This document shows, piece by piece, positions 446 through 61,376 of a DNA stretch of 64,000 nucleotides. Made by a program: the position numbers and the translations under genes. Each line of letters begins with the position of its first letter. The stretch's first letter is position 1. The DNA is from Dioscorea cayenensis subsp. rotundata (lineage: Eukaryota > Streptophyta > Magnoliopsida > Dioscoreales > Dioscoreaceae): NCBI RefSeq assembly GCF_009730915.1, contig NC_052475.1, forward strand, positions 22,564,285 through 22,628,284, read 5' to 3'. Under the pieces are notes generated by a model. It worked only from the letters and a program-made list of their open reading frames with translations, was not told where the DNA came from and searched no databases.

Positions 446-3400
446 ATGAATCCCTTCATACCTTCGATCTCCAACTCCGTCCCTTCTTCTCCTAATCCTC
501 TCTCCATGTCTTCCTCTCTTCCTTTTTTTCTCCGGCTCGCTCCTCTCCGTCAATCTATCATCAGATCCACGATCCCAAATCACACTAGGGCGCCAGCATA
601 CTCTTGGTTCTCCAAGGTACAGCCGTTGCGTTTTTCTCCAGCTTGATCTCTTGATTGATTTTTCTTTTTGGTGTTTCTAGCCATCCGGATTGCGCATTGA
701 TCGGCGGGGATGTACTTCGAGCGGTTTCCCCATCCGCGTCTCCGCCATGGACGACGTATGTCTTTTTAATGATGAAATGAGGTTCCTTTGTTGATAATCT
801 TGTGAAGTCTTTAATTTTTCTTGTGTATTTTTTTAAAAAAATGATAGGATCCGATGGATGTTTATTCCATTTTCGATGAGAATGATGTGGTTTCTGGAAT
901 GAATTCTTCGTACATGATGTCTTCTAGTGAGGGCGAAGATAGTGATAGCGATCCGTTCCTGGATCCTAACAGGGATGTTGACTTACCGCCCAGGAAGGAT
1001 CAAAAGGATATTCCAGATGCTGCATTAACTATGGCTGCGCATAGATTTGCTTCGATCAACAGAGGGCACAGAAAAAGGAGGTGAATGGATTTCTTGAGTT
1101 TGGAATTTTGGTATTTTTGTTGGATTATTTTTAAGATAATGAATATCATGAAAGATGACACTTAGCTTAGTTTTAGTTGAGATCTTCGTTTAGTTTCCAT
1201 GATCAACTGATATAGTGTGGTTGCAATTGTGCTATAAATTTGCAATCTAATAAATTTTCTTTTGCCAAACGCAAGAAAATTTCAAATAAATAAATATGAT
1301 ACTGCACTTGAACCTGAGGCTCTCATACTTATGTTGAAAAAATTTCATTTTGTCGGCAATGAATTGTTTATGAAGTGCTGAAGGTTAGAACTATTGTTAT
1401 GCACTCCAGTTTCAGTTTGGTTTTAAATCAAATGTATTGGATTCAAGTAATTTCAAATTTAAAAGTAATAATTTTACCTAAAAAGAATGCTCAAAAGAAT
1501 TTCTATGTAGTTTCCCTGATGTTTTTAAGCTTTTACCTTCTGCACCACCCTACATTCCCCTCTCTGGGCAGGGGGCACTGAGGCTGAGGATGCCCCTAAT
1601 TGAGTCAAATCCACTATATCTGATTTGAGTTCAGCTGAACTCAACCTGATTGGCCACAACATTGAATTGATTTTGGTTAGCTATGATCAAAATTAACTTT
1701 GTTGGTTAATTCAAAAGGCATGGGTTGACCATGATTAAGTTTCAGATCCTTCTGGACAGGTGTCGTCAATTTGGCAACATATTTTTGAGTTGGTAATGCC
1801 TTGGGTTAGACTTTAGAGAATCAAACTGTGAAAATCCAGTTGTGATAACAAAAATAACTCTTATGATTGAGTCTAGATTATACAGCCCGCTTTAGCAGGC
1901 CATACCTTCTCTGTGATCATCAGTGTTTTGTTCGTAATTCTTTTTCTAACACACAAGGTGGATCATGATATACTCATCTTGAAACATTCAATGAGAGATT
2001 AAGATATGTGTTAAATATGATGGTATCATATCTTAGATTAAGTATACTCCCTTTCAAAGAGTGTGCATCTGCCCTTTTTATGAAACTTTATAATCCAAAA
2101 TTTTCCTATCTTTTTCATGGTTAAAACAAATTAAACGGTTGTGACAATGTTTTAAAAGTTGGCTGTCACTAGCATTTCTATAGGAGAGTAGTTGCTCTTG
2201 TAGAAAATCAAGACATATTTGTACTTAGGTTCTTATATATTAGCAACCTTTGCATCGCATGATCCTTTTTATTATGTATCAGTGAATTAGCTCTACTTTA
2301 GGCTATGGTATGTGATGTCATGTGCTTATTTTAAGAAGAAAATAAAGATGAAGAAGACCTAGCCGTAGCATATACTGTTATTGAACCCGGTGGGATTAAG
2401 AATAAAAATGAAACTAGAAGATCCCGGTGATGTGTGGACTTCGAAGGAAGCGGTAGCGACCGGATGGTGAAGTTTGAAACTGTTGTAATCTATGTATATT
2501 TCCCGTATTCTATGATATATATGTAATTCCCGATATATTATATGATGTTGTTCCTTTCAAGATAAATCTGCATTTAATATGTTAAAACATATTTAAATAA
2601 ATCACATATAACAAACATGATTTGATTATATTTGTACAAATAAAACTGGACTTGGGCCGAGTTATCTACAGAAAATATATGTTTCTCGAACCGGGCCACG
2701 AAATGTTTAACAGCTTTAATTACAGAATTAATAGAAATAACTCCAAAACTATTAAGGAAATTTAAAACATTACATCTAAATACATGAAGAAAATTTTTTG
2801 TATGTGGGCGTAGTGTAGTCCGTCTACGGAAGAATAACCAACATTTATTGATACGTAGAGCTCTACGTAGATTACAGTTGAATCTTTATCTCCATTGTTA
2901 TCCGGTTCCAGTTGTTGTAGAACAGTCTGCCTATGTGCTCCTTCACCTGGAAGTACAAAGGATTACGTAGTTCCCAGTAAAATACATGTATTTGCCTACT
3001 CTTCTGTGAGTATTTCTCCGGTTCTACTATCCATTGTTAGGTAGAATAACCGGATGAAGGACTTGTGTTACTATCTTGGGCTTGGGCCGTATTGAACAGA
3101 GGCTCATAAAGGAACTCAAACTGGGCATTTTTCAAGGTCCAATCCCGCAGGCCCACATTTTCAGACTTGTCAAGGAATTCCTTATAACTAGAATCACAGC
3201 CCGGGTTGCATAAAATAATAAACGGTATCCCACCTCTAATTCGAACAGGTTTCCCGTATTTGCAATTGGTTTGTCAATCTCTCTGTGCGCCGATGAGCTC
3301 CTTCCAGTGTTTTATACGTAGATAACTTGGTGCCACGTCATCAATAACATTGTATAAAACATCTTGGTGAAATGTTGCTTGATTGAAATCCAGATGGCCA

Positions 3401-6400
3401 CAGATGTAATTATGTTTACCCAGAGAACGGGCCCATGCAGTTTTACCAATACGACTTGGGCCTTCAATAATCAGACTAGTGGGTCGAATACACTCCTCCT
3501 TATGTATTATTATATTCCCATATGGCCGTGCAGCGTCAGTCTGAGCACGACCATGCTGAGACTGTGTCGATCCTGAAAGTTCCTTATTAACCCTCAGATT
3601 TAGGTCTTCTTAGTATCTTTTGTTCGGGAGTCTTCTTCTTCCATTCGTATGAATTCATGAGGGGACAACCGTTCCACGGTGCTCCAAGATTGTGAACTAT
3701 GTTATCTCTCATACTTTGACTACTTGAGTTTTAATGGCTATGGAGTTCTATTATTTTCTTGTGCAATTCATGTGCTGCGTAACATGACGTGCTTGATTTG
3801 CTTAGATGCTTGCGTAAAACTTGGCGTTTGTGGAATACTGTAGTTGTGACCACCTATTGTAGTTGCAAATTTTGGTATGTATGAAGCCTATAGTTATACT
3901 TGAATAACTTGGTATAGTTGATAGCCATAGATGCAGTAAATCTTTTGAGCACCCACAAGGATCTTAGAATGTACTTTAGTAGGCATTACACTCAAGTCAG
4001 TATCTTAGGCACTTGGGAATCATCCTGGGGCATTGCTAACTTGTTATCAAAACTCAACCCTAGTCTACTTGGTTCTTGCATCCCCTTCATTCTTTAGTTT
4101 TATTTAGTAGTTAACTTCTTTATCACCCTTTCAGTTTGATTAGACATTAGAAAATCAACTAGTACTAGAAGTCCAGTCTCTAAGGTTCGACAACTCTACC
4201 CCTGTGTGGGGTACTACTTAATTACTAGAGTCTTCTGTTATTTATCATCCAGTCAGCAAAGTCCAGTGAAGATGTCAGAGCGTATATAGAAAAGGAAGGT
4301 GATTACGTGGATTGGGGTATATTCCAAGGAGACTCCAGGTCAGCAAGACATGGAAGACAGTCATTAGCTGATATTTATGATGATCCTCTAAATTCAGGTT
4401 AAACAGATGAGGCATTAAAGATTATCAGAAAGAATGATCCTAGGAATTTTACATTACAATACCATAATCTAAGACCTAATTATGAAAGAATTTTTTTCAA
4501 ACTTCTAGGTCCTTACACGTCTTTCTGGGCTTATTCTACATTTAAGATTACAAGGATTATGAATGATTGGCTTGAACATAATTTCCTGGTTAATGACGCT
4601 ACGCGGCCAGATGGGAATATAATAATACATAAAAAGGAGTGTATTCGGCCCACTAGTCTGATTATTGAAGGCCCAAGTCGTATTGGTAAAACTGCATGGG
4701 TCCGTTCTCTGGGTAAACATAATTACATCTGTGGCCATCTGGATTTCAATCCAACAACATTTCACCAAGATGTTTTATACAATGTTATTGATGACGTGGC
4801 ACCAAGTTATCTACGTATAAAACACTGGAGGGAGCTCATCGACGCACAGAGAGATTGACAAACCAATTGCAAATATCGTTTATTATTTTATGCAACCCGG
4901 GCTGTGATTCTAGTTACAAGGAATTCCTTGACAAGTCTGAAAATGTGGGCCTGCGGAATTGGACCTTGAAAAATGCCCAGTTTGAGTTCCTTTATGAGCC
5001 TCTGTTCAATACGGCCCAAGCTCAAGATAGTAACACAAGTCTTTCATCCGGTTAATCTACCTAACAATGGACAGTAGAACCAGAGAAATACTCACAGAAG
5101 AGCAGGCAAATACGTGTGTATTTTACTGGGAACTACGTAATCCTTTGAACTTCCAGGTGAAGGAGCACATAGACAGACTGTTCTACAACAACTGGAACCG
5201 GATAACAATGGAGATAAGATTCAACTGTAATCTACGTAGAGCTCTACGTATCAATAAATGTTGGTTATTCTTCAGTAGATGGACTACACTACGTCCGCGT
5301 ACAGGGAATTTTCTTCATGTATTCAGATGTATTGTTTTAAATTTCCTTAATAGTTTTGGAGTTATTTCTATTAATTATGTAATTAAAGCTGTTAAACATT
5401 TCGTGGCCCGGTTCGAGAAACATATATTTTCTGTAGATAACTCGGTCCAAGTCCAGTTTTATTTATACTAATATAATCAAATCATGTTTGTTATATGTGA
5501 TTTATTTAAATATGTTTTAACATATTAAATGCAGATTTATCTTGAAAGGAACATCATATAATATATCGGGAATTACATATATATCATAGAATACGGGAAA
5601 TATACATAGATTACAACAGTTTCAAACTTCACCATTCAGTCGCTACCGCTATCTTCGAAGTCCACACATCACCGGGATCTTATAGTTTCATTTTATTCTT
5701 AATCCCACCGGGTTCAATAACAGTATATGCTGCGGCCAGGTTTTCCTCATCTTTATTTGTACTTGCGGCTACGCGTAACATACGGTACACCGCTTCTTCG
5801 TGTTTGTGCAATGCGTTGACGAACACCAGGAGTAGTTCGAGATTCTTTTTTACTGCCTGTGCTATCATATACCATGGATGCATTTAATGATCTTTGTCTG
5901 GCTGTAGCGGAGAAACAATAAATATACTGACATTATATCTTCTTTGTTCATCTTCTATAACAAGCCATCTGTCTCTGGTCATATATATAGTGGTTAGCAT
6001 TACTGGGTTAGGTTGCATTCTTCTTATCTACACATCACAAAGGTCATCATATGAACAACGGCCGACATGTAGAGTCCAGGTCATATACCTAATTGGTAGA
6101 TCCATAATTATTTTAATAAAGCTTGTCGGCCAATTATTCATTTCTCTTACGAGAAATATTATTTAATTTCTTTCTCTGACGAGATATATTAATTAATTTA
6201 TTTCTCTGGCAAGAAATATTATTTAATTCAGTAGTGGGACCCACTAGTTTGAATTCTCGGAGAAGAATTCGAGGCGCCGGATTTAATTTTTATTTGAAAT
6301 TTCAGAGAAAGATTCCAGGACATCAACTTTAATTAAAACTGACCAATCTGGAGATGCCACATGGCGGAATATCTTTTTCATGGTTAAAACAAACTGAACG

Positions 6401-9400
6401 GTTGTGACAATGTTTTAAAAGTTGGCTGTCACTAGCATTTCTATAGGAGAGTAGTTGCTCTTGTAGAAAATCAAGACATATTTGTACTTAGGTTCTTATA
6501 TATTAGCAACCTTTGCATCTCATGATCCTTTTTATTATGTATCAGTGAATTAGGTCTACTTTAGGCTATGGTATGTGATGTCATGTGCTTATTTTAGTAA
6601 TTGCAAAATTGCAGGTTTTTACATAACTAATTTAAAGGTCTACTTGTAGTGATAATTGTTGCTGGTAATGGTGACCATTGAAATTTTCCAACTTGCTTTG
6701 AAATAATATGAGAATAGTTACTTTAATTTAGTGGCAACTTAGAGAAATGATCTTTTGAAAATGCTGAGCATGTTTTAATAGGTAATGACTTTTGCATATA
6801 TTGCATTTTTGCTAACTACACCCATTTATGAATTCGTGCTTTCTGGTGAAATAAATAAACTAACTTGAGTCTATTTGTGTTTTTATTATCAGAATTCGTA
6901 GAGGAGTCTGGAATAATATGGGGTTGATTGCTTTTGTCATATTGTTCCTCTTATTTGTTGACTGGTGTTCATGGAGAATTGTTAGAATTCCACTTGAATC
7001 TTTTTACTTGACACACCCTTTTTGGGTATCAACATCTTTATCAGCTTGTGCTGGATGGATTTATATACCTCTAGTTGATAGCATGAAGTTACATCAAATT
7101 CAGAGTAAAGGAGGTCCTAGCGCACCCTCCTCTAAAAGGGGTATTCCAACAATGGGTGGATTATTTTTCATTCCTGTTGGAGTTATTGTTGCAAGATGCA
7201 AAGCTGGTAGCCATTCCTACCCGGTGTATGGGTCAGTGTTAGCAACTCTAGCATGTGCTGCAGTTGGATTGCTTGATGATGGTTTAAGTTTGGTTAAAAA
7301 CCGCAGTTATGGATTATCAGGATGGACAAAATTCTTTTTGCTGGTAAGCAACTAAGACAATTCTTTATGCCTACAATTTATTATTGCTTGTATTATTTGT
7401 GTTTTCTTAAATATGTTGAAATCACTAACTGTTTACTTATGGTCAGCAGGTAGTTGTGGGGGCATCATTTTCCGTTTGGATGAACTCTGCAAATTTACCA
7501 ACACCTTACAACATGTATACTTACCTGTAACCAATATGATGAACAGTTATGATGGTAACATATATTGATAAATTCTTCTATTGTTGTGTTATTAATAAGT
7601 TTTCCGTGTATGTTCAATGATATTTTACAAATGGAAGGCAAGGAGAGATGGATAGCAAGGCTAGGGGATTTTTTAGTCCACCAAATAGTTGATGGTAGAG
7701 TGGTCAATTTTATTATTATTATTATTTTATTTTATTTTATTTTTTTTAAGATAATGGAATGAGGCTACATTATAGACATATACTAGCTTCTAATAAAATT
7801 TGATCACTATTAGATGCAACCAAGCACTTATTATTTGGGCACGATTAAACCCAAAAGCATAAGCTGATAGGATGAGACTCAGGCTTGTATGTTCAGTCCA
7901 TATTTACCCACTTAACTTGTGTGAGACTATTAGTTGCTCTTAACATTCTCCTCCTTCCCAATTTCTAGTTTTTTTTTATATATTCCTCTGTAGGTTGCAC
8001 TGTGTTTAGCTGCCCCTAGATTGATAGTTGCAGTTATGTCCGTAAAAGCATGAGGAACATGTGAATCAGCATGTCGTTGCTGTTTTCCTTTACCATCTCT
8101 TTTTTTTTTACTTTGTTTGACCTTGTTTGAAGTTGAAGTAGCTGGATCTTATCCAATAGTCCCTCCCAAGTTCAATTGTTGATTATGGGACTTATATCCG
8201 GTGATAAACTTAATAAAGAAAGAAGGTTCCCATGTGACTGACAACCAATTTTTTCGCTAGTTGCATCTGTGTGTAAGTTTAATCAGTCATCTAACTATAA
8301 CTATAGCAGTCCTCTTAATGTTGTGAGTTTTCCCCATTTTCTGTATTATGCGACTTCTCTAGCAATGTGATTGGGAGAGATAATTGGAAATGGATCAAAG
8401 GTGATACAAAATGATAGTGACATGAAAGTGGACATATTATTTAATATTTAAAGAAATATGGTAATTACTTGTCATCTGTCTTAGGACGACTGTTATGGAG
8501 AGTGCAAGTGGGTGCTATGGTTTCACCATAATGTTGTTTCCCCTTAAATATACAATTCCATGCCTTTCAGTGGTCAAGCAGGTTGAACAGTTTCTGAACC
8601 ATATAAATGTCATGCTGATAAGTTTCCCCTAGTATTGCTTTGATTCTTAAAACCTATTTCAATTTAGTTTGGAAAAAAGGAGTATCATAGCATGCCTTCA
8701 TGCATCTTCATACAAGCATTGTACTAGAACTTATCCGCATCTTCATTTCTACAGATACTCAGAGAACTGAAGTTGGTTTTGCATCCTTTTGCTAAAATAT
8801 CAATGGAATTTGGTGGTTGTCTATACTCCCTGCGGCGGAATTTAGGCCAGAATTGGGATGCAGAAGGATCACATGTATAACATTATTTCTTCTTCATTTC
8901 TTTTTAGTCAGGTGTGTCATTTGGTCCCTGAACTTTGAGAAATAGAGTGAATTACAGTCCCCATTAAGCCCAAAATATTAGGGATTCATTAATTTGGGAT
9001 AAACTCATAGAGCTCAGCTTGGCCTTGTTCAACCCTTTTGGATAAACTGATCAATGATTGTGGTGAATCATATCACTAAAATTTAAATTTTACTGATTGA
9101 ATCTGGACTTTCTAATTAGTTGCTATAGATGCATTGCTTCAGAATTTTCATCAGCTAGCCATTTCTTGCTGAGTTGGCCTATGAAGCCACATTATACTCA
9201 TGCAAGGACAAAAGCATCATTTATATTTTCATATTATCCTGCAAAGAAGTTAAGATTTGTTGGCAAGGAAAAAAAATAATGATGATTTTGTCCTTACATG
9301 GTGCCATATGATGCAATATGAAGTATGAATGCAGCAAGATATAACTGGTTGGTGGTAATTCTGATGGAAGGTATGCATTGCAACAGATTAGTAAGTGCAA

Positions 9401-11706
9401 GGTTTTAGTTGGGCAAATTTTAAAATTTAGGGGCTTGTGGTGATTAAGCTTTAAGTGCAGGGGCCATTAGGTAATCTACCCTATATTTTTTCATCCATGT
9501 CGCAATTTTTTTTCTAGAAGTTTAGTAAATAATTTCTACCCATGACAAACTATATTTTTTGGTGCCTCTTGAATTTGGCAATCTATTGCTCCTGGATTTT
9601 TTATATTCATCTGGATTGGAGCTTGTCCATTGTAATTTACTGGTCGGAGGATCTCTTACAGAATTCCAAAAAGAGACTGCTGTTGTTTTTTCTGCACAAC
9701 ATTTTCTGTTGGATTGCTAATTCATTATTTATAATAAGCCGATCTTCCTGCATTTATTTTGTCTTTATAATATGCAATACTCTTTGATAGCTGTGGGATG
9801 GATGGTAGTGGGTAGAAAGAGAAATGTAGGAAATGAAACTGCAATATCTCAGTGTTTCCACTCTCTTGTTGGTGATAAGAGCTGGATGAATTTGGATGTA
9901 TGTATTATAGATGAAATCAATTGTTAAATTTGGATATTTCTAACTGTCCTGGAAAGAAAGGGTCATAGCATGAGTGAAGATCCAGATTTGGTGGTGAATA
10001 GATGGAAAAGGACCACATTGCAACGGACAAATTAGTAGTGCAAATGCATCAAATCTAATGATCTGATAGTTCTCATTTTGTATGAGTGGTTGTAGAGATA
10101 TTAGAGGGTTTATAGAATGAAGACTAGTTTTATAAATACGTGGACATTTTTGGTTGGAGTTGGTCCAATCCTCTATTAGGGTTTGGCCATCTTGCTTGTT
10201 TACACTCTTGATCACATTTGAGTTCTTGCTCCTCTGCCAGAGATATCAGAGAGTTGCATGTGCCTCTACCATAATTCTTGTGATGCCCTTTTTATATTTC
10301 CAGGAGATATTCTATTTTATTTATGTGATGCATTAGTCAGAAAAAATCCTTTCATCTGCCGAGAAGTGATCTTTAATCGGTAGCTTACATTGTTTTCCAA
10401 AGAAAGCTTTAACTATGCAAATCAACAACCTACTATGTAAATTAATTTTCATTTGTCCTACTTGTTGTCTTCTACTAATTACTATTTAATATTTTTATGT
10501 TGTAGGAAATTTTTGGTTCCTTTCCCTGCACCACTCGGCCTGGTATATTTTGGAAAATTCTACCTGGCTTTGACAACGTTCTGTTTTGCTTCCATTGGGA
10601 CTGGAGTTAACCTCGCTGACAAGCTTGATGGCTTGGCTGGCGGAACTGCTGCTTTGGCTTTCTTAGGGATGGCCGTTGCTATTCTTCCAATATGCCCTGG
10701 TCCGTGTGGTTGATGTTTTGTTCAATTATAGCTGTCAGTCACTTGAACCAGTATCTAGAGTTATTATACCCTTTTTGTGTGTGTGTGTTTTGCTGAGCCC
10801 TTTGTATGTTTGAAAAGTCGGAAGCCATTGGTGGAGAAAAATAATTTTTTGGCCTAGCATCATGAAATTCTTGTTGTGCCATTTAATTTTATGGTTTAAT
10901 GATGTCTTGTTTTGAATTTTCTTGCAGAACTGTCTATTTTTGGAGCATCAATGGCTGGAGCATGTGTTGGCTTTCTTGTTCACAATCGTTACAGAGCTTC
11001 CATATTTATGGGTGATACTGGATCCCTGGCACTAGGTGGAGCTCTCGCTGCAATGGCTTCATGCACAGGAATGTTCCTTCCCTTGTTCATATCTTCTGGT
11101 GTGTTTATCTTGGACGCCGTGTCGGTCATAGTACAGGTATTGTAACCTGCCATTTTAGTTTGATTATGCTAAACTATTCACCTCAAACTATTCATTCCCT
11201 TGTTCATATCTTCTGATTTTCTTAACTTCACCATTGAACAACTATATACTATGCTCACTCATGCATCCCAGACCATGGTATGCAACAGCTATTAACTTGC
11301 AGGATGTCCAGTAGAGGACACTCTGGACAGATATTACAATAGTTCTTAATGCTATGACAGGGATGGTTGCAAAATCTGTCATCCTCCAAGTATTGCAGAC
11401 ACTATAGGACAACTCAAGATCTTAATTATATTTTTCTTATATTTTTTAAGATCAACATATTGTTATTGTTGTATCTGGTATTGAGGATTCACTTTGCTTG
11501 TGACTTTCCTGTTTGTATGATAGGTACTTACTCTAAGGGCAACCAGATGTATACATGGAACAAGTAAATACATTCGTCGGATAGCACCCATGCACCGTAT
11601 CCTTGAACTATGTGGGTTGAAAGAACCAGTGATTGTTGCAATTGCTTATGTTATATACTGCAGCATGGCCATGTATGCTGGATATGTTGGCCTGATCTCA
11701 GCTTGA
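446..11706 (+). CDS. MraY: Plastid-type phospho-MurNAc-pentapeptide transferase (MraY / translocase I homologue), 8 exons
   Basis: Exons: 446-616, 681-755, 848-1080, 6893-7343, 7450-7514, 10506-10699, 10928-11136 and 11524-11706. All borders are GT-AG and the phases agree, giving 526 residues. MraY enzymes are polytopic membrane proteins that transfer phospho-MurNAc-pentapeptide to a polyprenyl phosphate in peptidoglycan synthesis; plant homologues are thought to act in the plastid envelope. Residues 1 to about 160 look like a plastid transit peptide plus a Ser/Asp/Glu-rich linker, followed by many hydrophobic segments. Family motifs are visible: a KGGP...GIPTMGG loop (about 232-249), the acidic pair in LLDDG (288-289), [12 protein letters not shown] (about 367-378) with catalytic-type aspartates, [12 protein letters not shown] with Asp426, and PMHRILEL with His490. 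The ATG at 446 opens the frame; Met20 (ATG at 503) is an alternative start. The gene is convergent with the bZIP gene. Intron 3 (1081-6892) contains the endogenous geminivirus and intron 5 is about 3 kb. Confidence 0.93.
2107..2333 (+). repeat. Left copy of the 227-bp direct repeat flanking the geminiviral insert
   Basis: These 227 bases recur in the same orientation at 6370-6596. By eye the two copies have the same length and differ at only four positions (AAATTAAACGG against AAACTGAACGG, GCATCGCATG against GCATCTCATG, and TTAGCTC against TTAGGTC). The sequence looks like ordinary MraY intron DNA. The viral insert sits exactly between the copies, so the repeat is best read as a duplication of the host target made at integration. 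That is far longer than a transposase or integrase target-site duplication. Confidence 0.92.
2340..3540 (-). mobile_element. Endogenous geminivirus, left (inverted) arm with broken REn and Rep remnants
   Basis: This stretch is the reverse complement of about 4594-5757, with scattered substitutions. On the minus strand it holds the 3' part of a geminiviral Rep region (about 3540-3045) followed by a REn region (3034 to about 2636). REn is dead here: its 13th codon is TAG at 2998-2996, and a one-base length difference from the right arm breaks the frame further on. The Rep part keeps about 31 bases (near 3226-3256) that the right arm has lost. It shares the in-frame TGA found in the right arm (3276-3274 here). 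Rep homology stops shortly upstream of the Walker A region, where unrelated sequence begins. Many arm differences look like C/T or G/A transitions, as expected for methylated, silenced DNA. Confidence 0.9.
3541..4249. other. Non-viral spacer between the viral arms, possibly an LTR fragment
   Basis: This 0.7-kb segment separates the two viral arms and replaces the Rep N-terminal coding part and origin region expected upstream of position 4250. I recognise no geminiviral sequence in it. Its right end (about 4185-4230) has the sort of GGTTCGACAACTCTACCCC sequence found in the R/U5 part of many plant Ty3-type LTRs, so a truncated or solo LTR is possible. I found no matching terminal repeats or target duplication. 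It could equally be host DNA captured during integration. Confidence 0.3.
4256..5055 (+). pseudogene. Rep: Endogenous geminivirus Rep (replication initiator) pseudogene, 5'-truncated
   Basis: Rep nicks and ligates viral DNA at the origin and is a superfamily 3 helicase. The visible reading begins near the catalytic-tyrosine motif III (residues VRAYIEK). It continues into the oligomerisation region and then the helicase domain, with Walker A GPSRIGKT (about 4672-4695) and Walker B VIDDV (about 4786-4800). The N-terminal motifs I and II are absent because non-viral sequence abuts at about 4250. The frame has a TAA at about 4398-4400 and a TGA at 4856-4858. A deletion of about 31 bases near 4875, relative to the left arm, shifts the frame of the C-terminal part, which ends at the TAA at 5053-5055. 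No functional Rep can be made from this copy as it stands. It has the same strand as the host MraY gene. Confidence 0.9.
4594..5757 (+). repeat. Right arm of the geminiviral inverted repeat
   Basis: About 1.16 kb that pairs as an inverted repeat with about 2340-3540. The spacer between the arms is about 1.05 kb. Stretches compared by eye are roughly 90-95% identical, with one clear indel of about 31 bases. The arm includes the Rep helicase and C-terminal part, all of REn, and the 3' end of the virion-sense side. If transcribed from the MraY promoter it would fold on the left arm as a long imperfect RNA duplex. Confidence 0.88.
5067..5471 (+). CDS. REn: Open geminiviral REn (replication enhancer, C3/AC3-type) frame, 134 aa
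   Basis: REn is a small geminiviral protein that binds Rep and boosts viral DNA accumulation. The frame begins 11 bases after the Rep stop, the expected Rep-then-REn order on one strand, and runs 134 codons, the usual family length. Family-typical features are an N-terminal MDSRT start, a central [20 protein letters not shown] stretch and a hydrophobic, basic C-terminal half. It has no internal stop, whereas the left-arm copy stops at codon 13. A one-base indel between the arms near 5219 means that one arm's downstream frame is altered. The open length here argues that this arm keeps the original frame, though amino acids after about residue 85 should be checked. It lies in sense orientation in MraY intron 3; translation is unproven. 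Confidence 0.8.
   Translation: MDSRTREILTEEQANTCVFYWELRNPLNFQVKEHIDRLFYNNWNRITMEIRFNCNLRRALRINKCWLFFSRWTTLRPRTGNFLHVFRCIVLNFLNSFGVISINYVIKAVKHFVARFEKHIFSVDNSVQVQFYLY
5680..5883 (-). CDS. Small unidentified ORF on the virion-sense side of the endogenous geminivirus, 67 aa
   Basis: This minus-strand ORF converges on REn, with about 200 bases between them. This is where the 3' end of the coat-protein gene lies in geminiviruses. It starts at the ATG 5883-5881, directly after an in-frame TAA, so it may be the tail of a broken longer frame. The product is mixed helical and ends in a lysine-rich KNKMKL tail. I do not recognise a coat protein or any other family in it. The final third of the ORF is repeated in the left arm (about 2341-2415). 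Its origin as viral is inferred from position only. Confidence 0.35.
   Translation of the reverse strand: MHPWYMIAQAVKKNLELLLVFVNALHKHEEAVYRMLRVAASTNKDEENLAAAYTVIEPGGIKNKMKL
6141..6230. repeat. Three tandem 30-bp units, the first forming a clear small hairpin
   Basis: Units start at 6141, 6171 and 6201 with an exact 30-bp period. Each begins TTTCTCT and has a GAGAAAT-like complement a few bases on, followed by an ATTATTTAAT-like tail. The first unit can fold as ATTTCTC-TTAC-GAGAAAT (6140-6157). The others are imperfect. The location suggests a viral intergenic region, but the iterated motif is not one I know. Confidence 0.7.
6232..6270. promoter_or_regulatory. Palindrome TAGTGGGACCCACTA plus an adjacent GAATTCT foldback
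   Basis: 6232-6246 is a perfect 15-base palindrome with a central A. It contains GTGGGACC, which fits the GTGGGNCC-type binding consensus of plant TCP factors and resembles the geminiviral conserved late element (GTGGTCCC). A second foldback, GAATTCT with AGAATTC, spans 6251-6270. Their place in the intergenic-like part of the insert makes a promoter role plausible, but this is inference. Confidence 0.4.
6370..6596 (+). repeat. Right copy of the 227-bp direct repeat flanking the geminiviral insert
   Basis: This is the partner of 2107-2333 (same orientation, same length, four differences by eye). After 6596 the sequence runs on as normal MraY intron to the acceptor AG at 6891-6892. Removing one copy plus the intervening 4036 bases would leave a plain intron of about 1.5 kb. 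Confidence 0.92.
8906..9485. mobile_element. Possible degenerate MITE in MraY intron 5
   Basis: The left end (GTCATTTGGTCCCTGAACTTT) loosely matches the reverse complement of the right end (TTACCTAATGGCCCCTGCACTT) about 580 bases away. This is the style of many plant miniature inverted-repeat elements. I could not find a convincing target-site duplication, and the terminal match is weak. The rest of intron 5 (7515-10505) is AT-rich and holds no gene that I recognise. Confidence 0.25.
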
Positions 11707-12379: not shown

Positions 12380-13350
12380 CTATTCAACCATATTTTCCGT
12401 ACTCTGCTGGTTGTAAATATTCCTTAGTCTCTCAAGTTCCTTCTTCAGTGCCTCCTGGTGAGCTACATTATGCCATTCATTCCCCAAATCAAATGAAAAC
12501 ATCAAATTAAACCAACCCATTTAATAACACTAATTAAAAAGTAAATACTTCTAATTAATTACCATCTTTAAAGATCTTGTCCTGTGTCAATGCAGCAATC
12601 CGTTGCCTGAGATGGCTGTTCCCGGCCGTCAGCGCCGAGCGCTGGTGGTCGAGAAACGCTACCCGCGGAGACAATGCCGACACCTCCGTCTTCATCATCA
12701 TCATCATCACCATGTATATATATATATATAACAAAGCCATCAAATACCATAATATTATGATTTCATGCATGCAAAAATTAAAATTAAAAAAAAAAAAATG
12801 AAAAACCTGCAACGTTGTGACACTCCGTTCCAACTCGGAGATATACTGCAACTTCCTGACTCTAGACCTCTGAGCAGACTGTCTGTTTGCCAATATCCTG
12901 TAAAACTCAAAAGAACACAGAGATTTTTCTTTTTTAAGTAAATAAATCACAAAGAAATTACTAATTAATTATGTAAGTAAGTAATTACTCATATATATAT
13001 ATGCAAAAGTCTGACCTTTTAACTCTCTTTGGATCCAAAGGAGAAGATATTTTGTCTTCAACCTTGCAACCTGCAGGAACAAGAGTAATACTACTGTCCT
13101 CCATGGCAGGAAGAAGTAGTTTCTCATCATCAGAAGGTGATGAAACTGAAGGTGGAGGAGCATCATTGTCCAACAAGGACAAGAGTTGGTCAGCATCAAA
13201 GTCATCATCAGGATCAAGGAAGGCGATGGAGTCACTGGAGGAACGGCGGTGTGAGGAACGTTTGGCGGATGAGAAGTCAAGGAAGTCATCAAAAGAGTAG
13301 TTTGTAGTAGCCATGGATGGGATCTTGGGTGGTAATAAGTACTGTTCCAT
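12380..13350 (-). CDS. Group E bZIP transcription factor (bZIP34/61-like), 4 exons
   Basis: Exons in order of transcription are 13350-13016, 12897-12807, 12689-12563 and 12462-12380. GT-AG borders and phases agree, giving 211 residues. The basic region runs from about residue 109, with RILANRQSAQRSRVRK carrying the invariant Asn116 and Arg124 (N-x7-R) that contact DNA. The leucine-zipper region then continues to about 190. A proline at residue 150 (SALSPRVAFLDHQ) interrupts the zipper, a hallmark of plant group E members such as bZIP34 and bZIP61, which favour heterodimers over homodimers. The N-terminal 110 residues are Ser/Asp-rich with a FDDFLDF motif. The start at 13350 is the first ATG in frame; Met13 (MATTNYSFDDF) is a possible alternative. 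Group E members have been linked to pollen and reproductive development. A nuclear location is inferred. Confidence 0.93.
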
Positions 13351-16947: not shown

Positions 16948-37651
<20,704 letters not shown>

Positions 37652-47466: not shown

Positions 47467-47827
47467 ATGCCAACTCTTTCGCTCCTATTCCTCTTCTTCA
47501 TCTCATCTCTCTGCGCCCGAGCCCATCCCCATCCCCAGGAAAAGGACGATGCCAGCGCCGGAGCTTCCGGAATGCCGCTTTGGTGCGTCGCCAAGAACAA
47601 CGCCGAGGACAGCGCGCTGCAATCGGCGCTCGATTGGGCCTGCGGTCAGGGCGGAGCTGATTGCAGTCAGATCCAGCCGGGCGGGCCATGCTTCCAGTCC
47701 AAGGACGTCCAATCCCTCGCTTCCTTCGCCTTCAACGACTACTTCCTCCGCCGCGGTTCCTCCCCATCCGACTGCGACTTCGCCGGCTCCGCCGCCCTCA
47801 CCTCCCTCGATCCCAGTACGCCCTTCT

Positions 47828-47873
<46 letters not shown>

Positions 47874-50800
47874 TATCTTTCCCAAATTTTCAGCTGGTTT
47901 TAGGGCATATTTGGAATTTCAAGTATAATTATATGCATTTTTGTTTTTATTTTCTTTGGAAATTGCAGCCAGTGGCAGCTGTCGATTCCCCTCCAGGTCA
48001 GTGTCTTCGAATTTCTCTTCCAATTTTCTTGGTTTTTCTAGTTTTCGTTTTTGCTTGGATTGAACCTCAGTGATGAAGATTATTACCGATTAATGCCACT
48101 TAATTAGAGATTTAATGTGTCTTGAGATGTGGAACACGGTGAAGTTGGACCCCACTAACATGATTCAAGTGCCCCATGTGCGTGCAATCTGTTCAATGTC
48201 GGTGCAAACGATGAAGTGCGGATCTAGATGCAATGGTCCACCTTTTTTGTTTGAGTTTAATCTGGATACAGAGTGGTCCATTTCTTTGGATTGAGACATA
48301 TAGAAGAGATGGTCATTTACTATTGATTTTAATACTGATGTTTGATGTTTGTTTAGAGGTAGGTGATTGTAGTGTGGAATGAGAAGAGTTTAACTTCTGA
48401 GAAGTGGATGAAGTGTCAATTTTTCAATTTAGGTAGAGTACCCATATTAGTCTCTATACTCTTTTCATTTTGCTCTTTTAGTTCTCCTATTTCAATTTAA
48501 GTCTTTTTAATCCCTCTCTCTTTGAATGAGTGCAATCAAGTCCCCCATATACACTTTGAATATACCAATTACTAATTTTTATTGCTCATATATTTTATAA
48601 ATCATATAATAAAATAAAAAAATTGTATTATTTCCCTGAATTGTGTATATTATAATGATTATTATGGATGAATTGTGTAGTATATTAATTATTTGTATGA
48701 TTAGAACAGTCTTAGGGGACTTGGTTGCACTCATTCAAAGAGCAGAGAGATTGAAAGAGTTTAAATTGAAGTAGGAGGACTAAAAGGGCAATATGAAATA
48801 AGTACAGTGGATTAACATGGGTATTCTACCTTCAATTTAAATCAAGTTGGAAACTTTGTTTTTCTTATTTGGTTGGTGAGACACTTTCTTGGAGAGAAAG
48901 AGATAAGGAGTGTGATAACTAGTTCATTTGATTGTCCTGCTAACTAGTTCATTTTAGTAAATCCATAAGCAAAGAAGAGAGTTGGTCTGCTAATTGTCTA
49001 TTTTGACAAATGAGTTGACAACTGGACTTAAATTTGATTAGTTAAACAAATGAATACATTGTTTAGAAACCTTTAGTGCAACACGACATCACACTAGTCT
49101 AGGATCCTAAACTAAGCGGAGGAATAACAATTAGCAAGAGGAAGATAAGGTCGTCCAAGATAGATAAGAGAAAATATTAGAATACAATTTGGGATATCCC
49201 CAACAAAAAATCAATGATTTAGTGTACATATCCCTGGGGAATGTACATACACCTACACATAAGTAAGCCTCTTGCAAGTTTTTAGAACCAAAAATTAACT
49301 TAAATTTAAACTTACATAGTAAGAGGTGATAACCATTCCATCTGATATTTGTATTTTTGGGTTTAATGCTCTGTGCTCATTTATAGTGATGCCTGGATTG
49401 AGTGATCCTGAAATTTACCATCATCCCACTTTTTCACATTTGTGCAAATGTAAGTAGTAAAAACAGTAGTTAGATCCCTGAAACATACTTAATGGCGCAC
49501 AGGGTATATTCATAACAGCGTAACAGACATAACAAAAATATGGGCAATATGTCATTCTATGATGTCTACTGCTCATTTGATAGCAACCTAAGAAGTTGAC
49601 TAAAGGGTTCCATTCAAGGTGTTTATTGCCTGAAAATTAAAACTCAAGGGGAGATACTGGTTTTAAGCTAAACTTGCAGAAAAATACACTATTTGCAATC
49701 AAGCAGAGGTTTTTCAAGCCATATCTGAATATTCCAGACAATTAATGAAGTTACTTGATTGAACGTACTTTAGCATCTTATGATGAAATTTGTCTGCAAC
49801 CAAGACTGAATATTGGGACCTCAAAGAATTTCCCTGTTGTAATCTTATTGGTCATATGTGTTTATATGGGATCATCATTCACCAGTATAGTTGATTTGAT
49901 TGGGACAATTTGTCGATTTACTTCAGGAAATCTCCTTGGTGTTTATATGGGATAGGTGGCTAATCTTCCAATAGCGCAAATACAAAGTCTCAATCAATGT
50001 TGACATGTAACTTCTCAAAAGCAAATTTAGGTGGCACTCCTTGCCTCTTCTATTTGTCCATTCAGATCGTTGTTCATTAGCTATAAAAACCACCTCAGGT
50101 GCTCATCTGCCTCTGACGTTTTATCTGACTATGCATCACTCATTTATAGGTCTGCAACATTGTTGTGAACTCTCCAGTGAAGATTTTTATCAAGCAGTTA
50201 GGAAGACAAATGGGGCTATAGTCCTTTAGCTTGCCCAAACTTTTTTATTTAATTGCGTAAATGAAAGAATTGTAGAATAGTTGATTTTATCCAGTGCATG
50301 TGTGTCCTGATATATCTCATCAGCCATCGTCGATCAGCCATCCTTGCTAATTTAGTAGTGATTCCAGATGTTTCAGGTAATATTAAAACCTGCCATTTCC
50401 TCCTAACTTGTAGATACTTTCTACAGGATTTTAGTTCTGTCAGGTGTTCAGGTTTATATCTTCTTTATAATTTTATATGTTATCAGTGGTTTCATGTAAA
50501 AATTTGAGAAACTATGAACGAAAAATCTTGAGAACATGTAAGTTAAGTGTTCAACTTACTGCACATGCAAAAATTGAGATACTCTGATTGGTCAAGACAA
50601 GGAGAAGTAATCCATGTTAGATTATAATTGTACAATAGCTAAGAAGTACCCAGAGTATGAAATTTCAGATTGGCAATTATCCTAAATCAATGTTATCAAA
50701 CTCAATTCTGTAGTAAGGTTTTCAATGCTCTTAAGCTTGTGCTTAATTAGTAGGCTTAATTTTCTACATGTACTATTATTTAATTTAATGTAATGAAAAT

Positions 50801-60440: not shown

Positions 60441-61376
60441 TCAATGATGAGAAGCAGAGGAAGCAGACGGCAGCTTCCCGGAGATACCATCTGCTTCCTC
60501 ATCGCCTTGAATCCTCGCCGGGACTCGAAAACTTGAGAATCCAGCAGTAGAAGCAAAGCCAAATGGTGCTTGCTGGTGATCAATCGGATCCATCCAAGCT
60601 CGGAGAAGCGGCGAATTACTGGACTGAAGGGGTCCCCTCTGTGCCAAAAGTTGGCTCTGGCCGTGCAACGGCACGGCATTGAACACATAAGCTCCACTCC
60701 CAACACCCTCAGCCAAACTCCAAGGAACCATCCTCTCATCGAAGGCAATAGGAAAGGCGTGAGCTTGATGGGATTCTTGGAATGTTTGGTCATGGAATGA
60801 GTGAAGAGAAAGACGAAGATCTCTAGTATTACAAGCAGGCAAAGGCGTGGATGGTGGAGCAGCAGCCATGGGGATGAAGGACTTGATAGTGTCCGCAATG
60901 GCGTCGGAATCTAGAGAGGGAGGGAGGAAGCTAAAGCTAGGGCTAGCGCCACTGAAAGCAAAGCCAGAAGAGTGATCGACGTCAGCAGGGGATGAAGCTT
61001 TCCTGGGTGATTCTTCTGGAGGGATAGGGGAATCAGAGGGGCGCCAAGGCGGGAGCTCGGCAAGCTTATCAATGGCAGGCTTGGCGTGCTTGATGAGCCA
61101 ATCAACAGCTTTGCTGGGGCGGTCATAGCCAAGTCGATCCTGGACGTCATAGAACTGGATGGCAGTGTGGGCGGCGAGGCGCACGCGGCGGTCGCGCGGG
61201 CCTTTAGCGGTGCACACCTTGCTGTGACGGTCCTTGCGGCCAGTAGCCCGCACAATGTGGCCGCCTTGGACTTCGACTATCTCGCCAGCGCCCCTCAGCG
61301 CCGCCGCGCCTCGGTACCGCGCCGGCGCGCGCTGCTGACGCGAAGACGAAGCCGTGGCCTTGTTCTCCAGGCTCAC
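60441..61376 (-). CDS. CIN-type TCP transcription factor, 311 aa, single exon
   Basis: The TCP domain spans about residues 46-108: a basic stretch [22 protein letters not shown], helix [19 protein letters not shown], a loop with RPSKAVDWL, and helix II with IDKLAELPP. This is the class II, CIN form (like TCP4 and PCF5) that restrains cell proliferation in leaf and petal margins. The rest is Ser/Pro-rich. Near residues 246-253 the protein reads QRGPLQSS, encoded by the miR319 target site. The ATG at 61376 is the first in frame, and the TCP domain follows at the usual distance. The leader upstream has GGT and other short repeats (about 61481-61499 and 61620-61640). The coding part is GC-rich and intronless, as is usual for the family. 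A nuclear location and developmental role follow from the family. Confidence 0.94.
60619..60639 (-). promoter_or_regulatory. miR319 target site in the TCP mRNA
   Basis: The plus strand reads TGGACTGAAGGG (60620-60631) followed by GTCCCC. It thus matches the miR319 sequence at its 5' and central part, with mismatches only toward the miRNA 3' end. The transcript therefore holds the standard JAW-TCP target, which codes for QRGPLQSS. Cleavage here would limit TCP levels during leaf growth. Confidence 0.9.

Follow-up and report, generated by a model that had tools for sequence, protein, structure and literature searches.

The third intron of a gene encoding MraY, an enzyme of the chloroplast wall, in the yam Dioscorea cayenensis subsp. 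rotundata contains an inverted pair of geminiviral sequences. It was found in a window of 64,000 nucleotides, which is the whole stretch of DNA that was analyzed (NC_052475.1, positions 22,564,285 to 22,628,284). The insert (window positions 2334–6369, 4,036 bp) consists of two inverted pieces of endogenous geminivirus (EGV) linked by a repeat fragment. It is a composite of sister EGV pieces placed between two copies of a 227-bp target sequence, and it has since drifted without visible constraint. It is considered fairly probable that an EGV hairpin, some 1–3 million years old, was captured by break repair in the host intron and is drifting, being at most a passive feeder of small interfering RNAs (siRNAs).

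The insert in the third intron of MraY

The geminiviral inverted repeat that an earlier note on this DNA (the original prediction) had placed in the MraY intron is confirmed, the two arms (Table 1) aligning far above chance. Their identity is 93.0% with gaps included (1201 columns, 46 mismatches, 5 gap openings, one of the gaps being of 31 nt) and 96% outside gaps, where 46 of 1163 aligned letters differ (4.0%). The arms had been attributed to Rep and REn, and the Pfam domains Gemini_AL1, Gemini_AL1_M and Gemini_AL3 were indeed recognized. Gemini_AL3 is matched in the right ren frame (8.9e-27) and in a piece of the left copy (2577–2885, minus strand, 5.8e-14), where ren is split over several frames. 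The rep pieces of the right copy match Gemini_AL1_M (8.1e-17) and Gemini_AL1 (1.7e-07). As the latter match is confined to positions 85–112 of the 113 of the profile, the right-copy rep is truncated, with most of the catalytic domain missing; it is also interrupted.

The identification of the host gene as MraY also stands. The exon 4 frame matches MraY_sig1 of Pfam and three MraY sequences of the PDB, the exon borders, picked by eye, are GT/AG, and a single reading frame crosses intron 3 and is open over exons 1–4. The exon 3 frame by itself had no Pfam match. Since the frame is open across the four exons, the insert appears to be tolerated. Subtracting the insert and one of the 227-bp copies would leave an intron of 1,549 bp. 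A further sequence resembling MraY (C1398:47042–47896, an unplaced contig) contains an in-frame TGA; over 71 residues, its protein is 82% identical to that of the window gene.

The spacer between the arms had been put at about 1 kb. This length is correct (1,055 bp), and the composition is now revised to a fragment of a dispersed repeat (3539–4228) followed by 365 bp of unpaired rep (4229–4593). The repeat is probably a retrotransposon. There are 1714 candidate relatives in the assembly, and the best of the 40 that were scored (C10:7213307–7213991) is 95% identical and has the same internal deletion. In seven fetched copies, the match to the window ends at 3537–3554 and 4224–4228, and the flanks resemble one another, by eye, past both ends of the spacer segment. 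The right viral copy is one continuous run (4229–6369), over which the EGV copies of contig C218 and other EGVs align in long pieces. One EGV locus (L004) aligned to window positions 4674–6371, and a query with 5600–6369 matched other EGV loci, with 91% identity at C218:93947–94716. A 30-bp unit occurs in three tandem copies (6136–6228) in the downstream tail of this copy.

The insert is bracketed by a direct duplication of 227 bp, the copies of which differ at 4 positions (1.8%). When the 584-Mb assembly (584,211,761 bases in 2249 contigs) was searched with this sequence, two matches were obtained, both being the insert flanks; the repeat is thus apparently a duplication of unique intron sequence. 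At three of the four junctions, two or more letters are possibly common to the joined partners, as judged by eye and depending on the repeat or EGV copy chosen. The insert has the appearance expected from break repair in which filler DNA is copied or captured, and does not look like the work of a transposase. Patch-mediated break repair, as reportedly described by Vaughn and Bennetzen in 2014, yields insertions with tandem duplication of the target. The MraY insert is likewise flanked on either side by a copy of a long target that is otherwise single-copy, the 227-bp sequence being apparently unique and directly duplicated around it; it differs from such insertions in being viral and inverted.

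The v-ori nonanucleotide was not found in the insert, and no coat-protein domain was recognized by Pfam among the scanned insert pieces. Among the IMG/VR viral contigs, there was no confirmed relative for ren or for one rep piece, and a rep piece had no PDB match at E ≤ 0.01. An AlphaFold model of the ren frame computed without alignment was poor (predicted local distance difference test score, pLDDT, of 47.2), gave no match at E ≤ 0.001 with Foldseek against BFVD, and was not used.

Table 1. Features of the MraY gene and of its intron 3 insert (window coordinates)
Feature	Position	Strand	Evidence
MraY exons 1–3	446–616, 681–755, 848–1080	+	GT/AG borders, frame continuous into exon 4
MraY intron 3, 5,812 bp	1081–6892	+	Splice borders and lengths
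Left copy of the 227-bp flanking duplication (host intron)	2107–2333	+	Self-comparison, assembly search
About six extra bases at the left edge of the insert	2334–2339		
Left EGV copy and left hairpin arm: 3′ part of rep, and ren, frames broken	2340–3538	-	Self-alignment, Gemini_AL3
Spacer: fragment of a high-copy dispersed repeat, 690 bp	3539–4228	+	Genome search, 7 fetched copies
Unpaired rep of the right EGV copy, from the end of the catalytic domain into the start of the central domain, 365 bp	4229–4593	+	Gemini_AL1 1.7e-07
Right hairpin arm: 3′ part of rep, ren, downstream sequence	4594–5758	+	Self-alignment, RNA fold
ren open frame, 134 aa, intact as it stands	5067–5471	+	Gemini_AL3 8.9e-27
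Right EGV copy, downstream part, unpaired, without recognized domain	5759–6369	+	Matches in other EGV loci
Right copy of the 227-bp flanking duplication	6370–6596	+	Self-comparison, assembly search
MraY exon 4	6893–7343	+	MraY_sig1, PDB MraY matches, splice borders
Downstream MraY exon, Glycos_transf_4 (PF00953)	10909–11058	+	Match at C5:22575193–22575342, 7.3e-10

Divergence and drift of the arms

The divergence of the arms (46/1163) is not significantly different from that of the flanking duplication (4/227; Fisher p 0.12). Substitution rates in grasses are 6.5e-9 to 1.3e-8 per site and year. At these rates, the arms would be 1.6–3.1 and the duplication 0.7–1.4 million years old. The differences between the arms are evenly distributed over the three codon positions, with 6/7/6 in ren and 4/4/3 in rep, the sequence downstream showing 9 in 287. 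In a four-way alignment, 24 changes were polarised to the right arm and 20 to the left, 3 of the 47 differences being unpolarised. In the RNA, the 46 arm differences would give 20 G:U pairs and 26 non-pairs. With even codon positions, even arms and so many non-pairs, neither protein nor pairing is visibly kept. As the arms are no more alike than the two copies of the duplication, and are without codon bias, there is no sign of selection for the hairpin.

In a study of transgenes, hairpin inverted repeats became methylated, and substitutions lessened the methylation (PMC9263138). Changes of the C-to-T type make up 28 of the 44 polarised changes in the arms. They lean to CHG sites (10/28 versus 93/431 scored C/G sites, a comparison made without significance test), which may be a weak hint of plant methylation. 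The ratio of observed to expected CpG is 0.81–0.87 for the viral sequence, 0.42 for the repeat fragment and 0.17–0.36 for four parts of the host intron, as would be expected for a fairly young insert without strong CG decay.

Related EGV copies and other inverted pairs

The EGV copies of the window most likely belong to the yam EGV family, as judged from domain content and copy number: rep and ren domains are present, and many related copies occur in one nuclear genome. EGV1 and EGV2, found in Enantiophyllum yams, carry rep and ren, and no coat or TrAP genes were detected in them (Filloux et al. 2015, PMC5014472). The copies of the present genome resemble them in having rep and ren, no coat-protein domain among the scanned pieces, many copies per genome, and direct arrays of ~2.5 kb units, here on C18 and C5. 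One such array (C18:7826369–7839159) consists of five EGV copies that all point the same way, with spacings of about 2.5 kb among the first four, and resembles the tandem EGV1 arrays of D. alata. What sets the window apart is that its two copies are inverted relative to each other and lie within an intron of a host gene; neither "inverted" nor "intron" is used in the main text of PMC5014472. The former word is also absent from the main text of the other main EGV paper (PMC7758297) and of a macadamia paper, and neither an inverted EGV pair nor an intronic EGV hairpin was found among the open-licence papers listed, as far as titles and abstract openings show. A survey reports 148 rep copies in D. 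alata and suggests a role for siRNAs in general terms (PMC7758297).

With window positions 4559–5471 as the query, at least 42 matches were obtained in the assembly, the best 40 of 131 candidates being scored. Among the matches listed, 14 pairs of neighbours at most 10 kb apart were counted by hand, without shuffled-strand control; 6 are inverted and 8 direct, including one 144-nt fragment on C218 among the latter. Besides the window pair, inverted pairs are present on C10, C14, C16 and C17, with identities of 97.2, 95.0, 93.4 and 88.9%, respectively (the C17 locus has three copies). A sixth, on C5 near 10.06 Mb, appears in the match table alone.

A tree was built from 37 partial EGV copies, namely 36 of the 42 matched places and one extra copy from C17. 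It left out two copies of the C18 array, C18:23.4 Mb, C9:9.3 Mb, a short C17 copy and the C218 fragment. In the five inverted pairs examined, the arms are sisters in every case, with support of 100/99 in the window, 100/100 on C10, 100/100 for the outer two copies on C17, 100/98 on C16 and 92/76 on C14, the last being under the threshold of the tool. The closest relatives of the window pair in the tree are the two C218 copies. Counting the window hairpin, the genome therefore holds five or more inverted EGV pairs. Since the arms are sisters within each pair, inversion of EGVs was probably local and repeated, and took place at different times. Five inverted sister pairs, each with its own arm divergence, make a natural series for the question of whether viral DNA hairpins are kept or simply decay.

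The C10 pair (C10:4923180–4927565, L021:2681–7066) is a 97% EGV palindrome of 4.4 kb ending about 60 bp from a UTP20_N-coding stretch on the minus strand, and is possibly a second genic EGV hairpin. The C14 pair (L023:2271–7703, 95%) lies downstream of a metallophosphoesterase exon and adjoins a retroelement integrase. For both, an exon on the far side was sought and none could be proven, and an intronic position is not claimed.

Predicted hairpin RNA and competing explanations

The viral inverted arms are able to form a long hairpin, according to both the alignment and the predicted fold. The 3,419-nt stretch has a predicted folding energy of -2244.3 kcal/mol, versus -793.4, -830.3 and -766.6 kcal/mol for three stretches of equal length from the window, and 1135 of the 1199 left-arm bases are predicted to pair with the right arm. 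The duplex had been called nearly perfect. This holds on average (96%), but the right and left arms contain 1,145 and 1,179 distinct 21-mers, 1800 in all, of which only 524 are common to both, and one of the gaps is of 31 nt. The 21-mers were compared with those of the fetched EGV loci of the same genome. The two C218 copies contain 254 and 181 of the 1800, any one of the other loci at most 34, and 393 match some fetched locus. As sharing is concentrated in the arms themselves and in C218, siRNAs from the arms could act on their own locus and on C218, and on little beyond among the loci compared.

The original prediction had also likened the locus to engineered intron-hairpin RNA (ihpRNA) constructs. 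Inverted viral arms and a spacer are indeed common to both. In ihpRNA constructs, the loop is a spliceable intron, which serves as the spacer and is lost on splicing, and it is the mature hairpin that is exported. Here the hairpin is itself inside the intron; both arms lie within 1081–6892 and would be removed with it, so that the engineered layout is not reproduced.

In D. alata, EGV1 siRNAs of 21, 22 and 24 nt are concentrated on rep and ren, and are ascribed to transcription and possibly to tandem repeats (PMC5014472). Inverted EGV pairs, one of them in a host gene with an open frame, would be a more direct source of double-stranded RNA (dsRNA). In tomato and soybean, viral inverted repeats have been described as sources of 22-nt siRNAs (PMC10377300, PMC6256188). 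Those of tomato derive from endogenous caulimovirids (Valli et al. 2023, as cited in PMC10377300) and resemble the MraY insert as rearranged viral DNA giving hairpin-capable RNA; they are pararetroviral with measured siRNAs, whereas the present one is geminiviral, intronic and known from sequence. The soybean repeat, from RNA1 of Cucumber mosaic virus, is likewise a viral inverted repeat, with a plant-derived spacer, and gives hairpin siRNAs (da Fonseca et al. 2016, via PMC6256188). It differs in its origin from an RNA virus and in its position just downstream of a retrotransposon promoter, and is not described as intronic in the part of PMC6256188 consulted. Because yam EGV siRNAs and siRNA-producing viral inverted repeats are on record, siRNA output from the MraY hairpin is plausible. 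Provided that it is transcribed and diced, the locus would function as a hairpin-RNA locus of natural origin.

The hairpin looks like a by-product of DNA repair. Approximately 1–3 million years ago, a staggered chromosome break in MraY intron 3 may have been mended in a single repair, during which the polymerase would have taken up a single EGV source in both orientations, by copying or capture, together with a piece of retroelement. Filling in of a long overhang would have produced the 227-bp duplication. The MraY pre-mRNA would lose the hairpin on splicing of the intron, and the dsRNA would be mainly nuclear. Part of it could be diced to siRNAs of 21–24 nt directed at the locus of origin and at the EGVs closest to it, those of C218. 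The locus would then do no more than feed EGV silencing passively, as one source among several, and would not be a maintained antiviral device.

Several observations weigh against this scenario. The duplication looks younger than the arms, which, although short of significance (p 0.12), leaves room for an inverted pair older than the insertion. Neither the source EGV nor an empty site was found in this assembly. The controls of the fold are poorer in G+C (0.30–0.34 versus 0.37 in the hairpin stretch). CG sites show no excess of C-to-T changes (4/28 versus 70/431 scored C/G sites), which speaks against a long history of strong CG methylation at this site. Transcription, splicing and dicing of the MraY hairpin have all been inferred.

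The hairpin may also be idle, either because splicing and degradation of the intron precede any action of Dicer or because the locus is silenced. Such an inert relic would fit the neutral drift, the intronic position and the tolerance of the insert by an open MraY frame. Against it, long inverted repeats are usual substrates of Dicer. A class of hairpin-derived siRNAs has also been described (PMC6256188), and this explanation is rather doubtful, if conceivable. It is unlikely that the window pair and the other inverted EGV pairs are at work together as heritable sources of hairpin RNA, in which EGVs are recurrently inverted and transcription from host genes produces siRNAs silencing the EGV family and close episomal relatives.

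The immune role suggested in the original prediction finds no support in the sequence, as arm differences are even over codon positions, the arms are not specially conserved and few 21-mers match other fetched EGVs. Under this hypothesis, MraY transcription would drive a selected hairpin, the siRNAs of which silence related geminiviruses. The geometry and predicted fold would suit it, as would published siRNA-producing viral inverted repeats (PMC10377300) and the occurrence of EGV siRNAs in yam (PMC5014472). The geminivirus entries in a review of yam viruses, in the part consulted, are EGV1/EGV2 and one virus marked as presumably endogenous (PMC9501508). A maintained hairpin is nevertheless distinctly improbable: the arm divergence of 4.0% is not less than the 1.8% of the duplication, neither codons nor pairing are visibly constrained (20 G:U and 26 non-pairs among the 46 differences), only 393 of the 1800 arm 21-mers match another fetched EGV locus, and the Rep and REn of D. 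alata EGV1 are 59 and 57% identical to the closest begomovirus proteins (PMC5014472). Protection against living geminiviruses is unlikely.

Long inverted arms and a flanking duplication could suggest a fold-back or terminal inverted repeat transposon with captured viral DNA, the arms being the terminal repeats and the 227 bp the target duplication. This was rejected as very improbable: the right arm ends at 5758 and the insert at 6369, the EGV copy extending 611 bp past the arm to the duplication, so that the arms are not at both insert ends; no second composite copy was found, no spacer match extends past 4228 (best 40 of 1714 candidates), the seven fetched copies stop at both junctions, and target duplications made by transposases are far shorter than 227 bp. 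Draft long-read assemblies do produce false palindromes, but a fold-back chimera or haplotype join is hardly credible here and was likewise rejected, since the arms show 46 substitutions as well as 5 gaps, the insert comes with a spacer of unrelated sequence and a precise 227-bp target duplication, and the arms of four other inverted pairs differ by 3–11%.

Elsewhere in the window, coding stretches were noted for a bZIP factor (12555–12950, minus strand), an X8-domain protein (47467–47928, plus strand) and a TCP factor (60441–61376, minus strand), together with a weak reverse-transcriptase match (31006–31521, minus strand).

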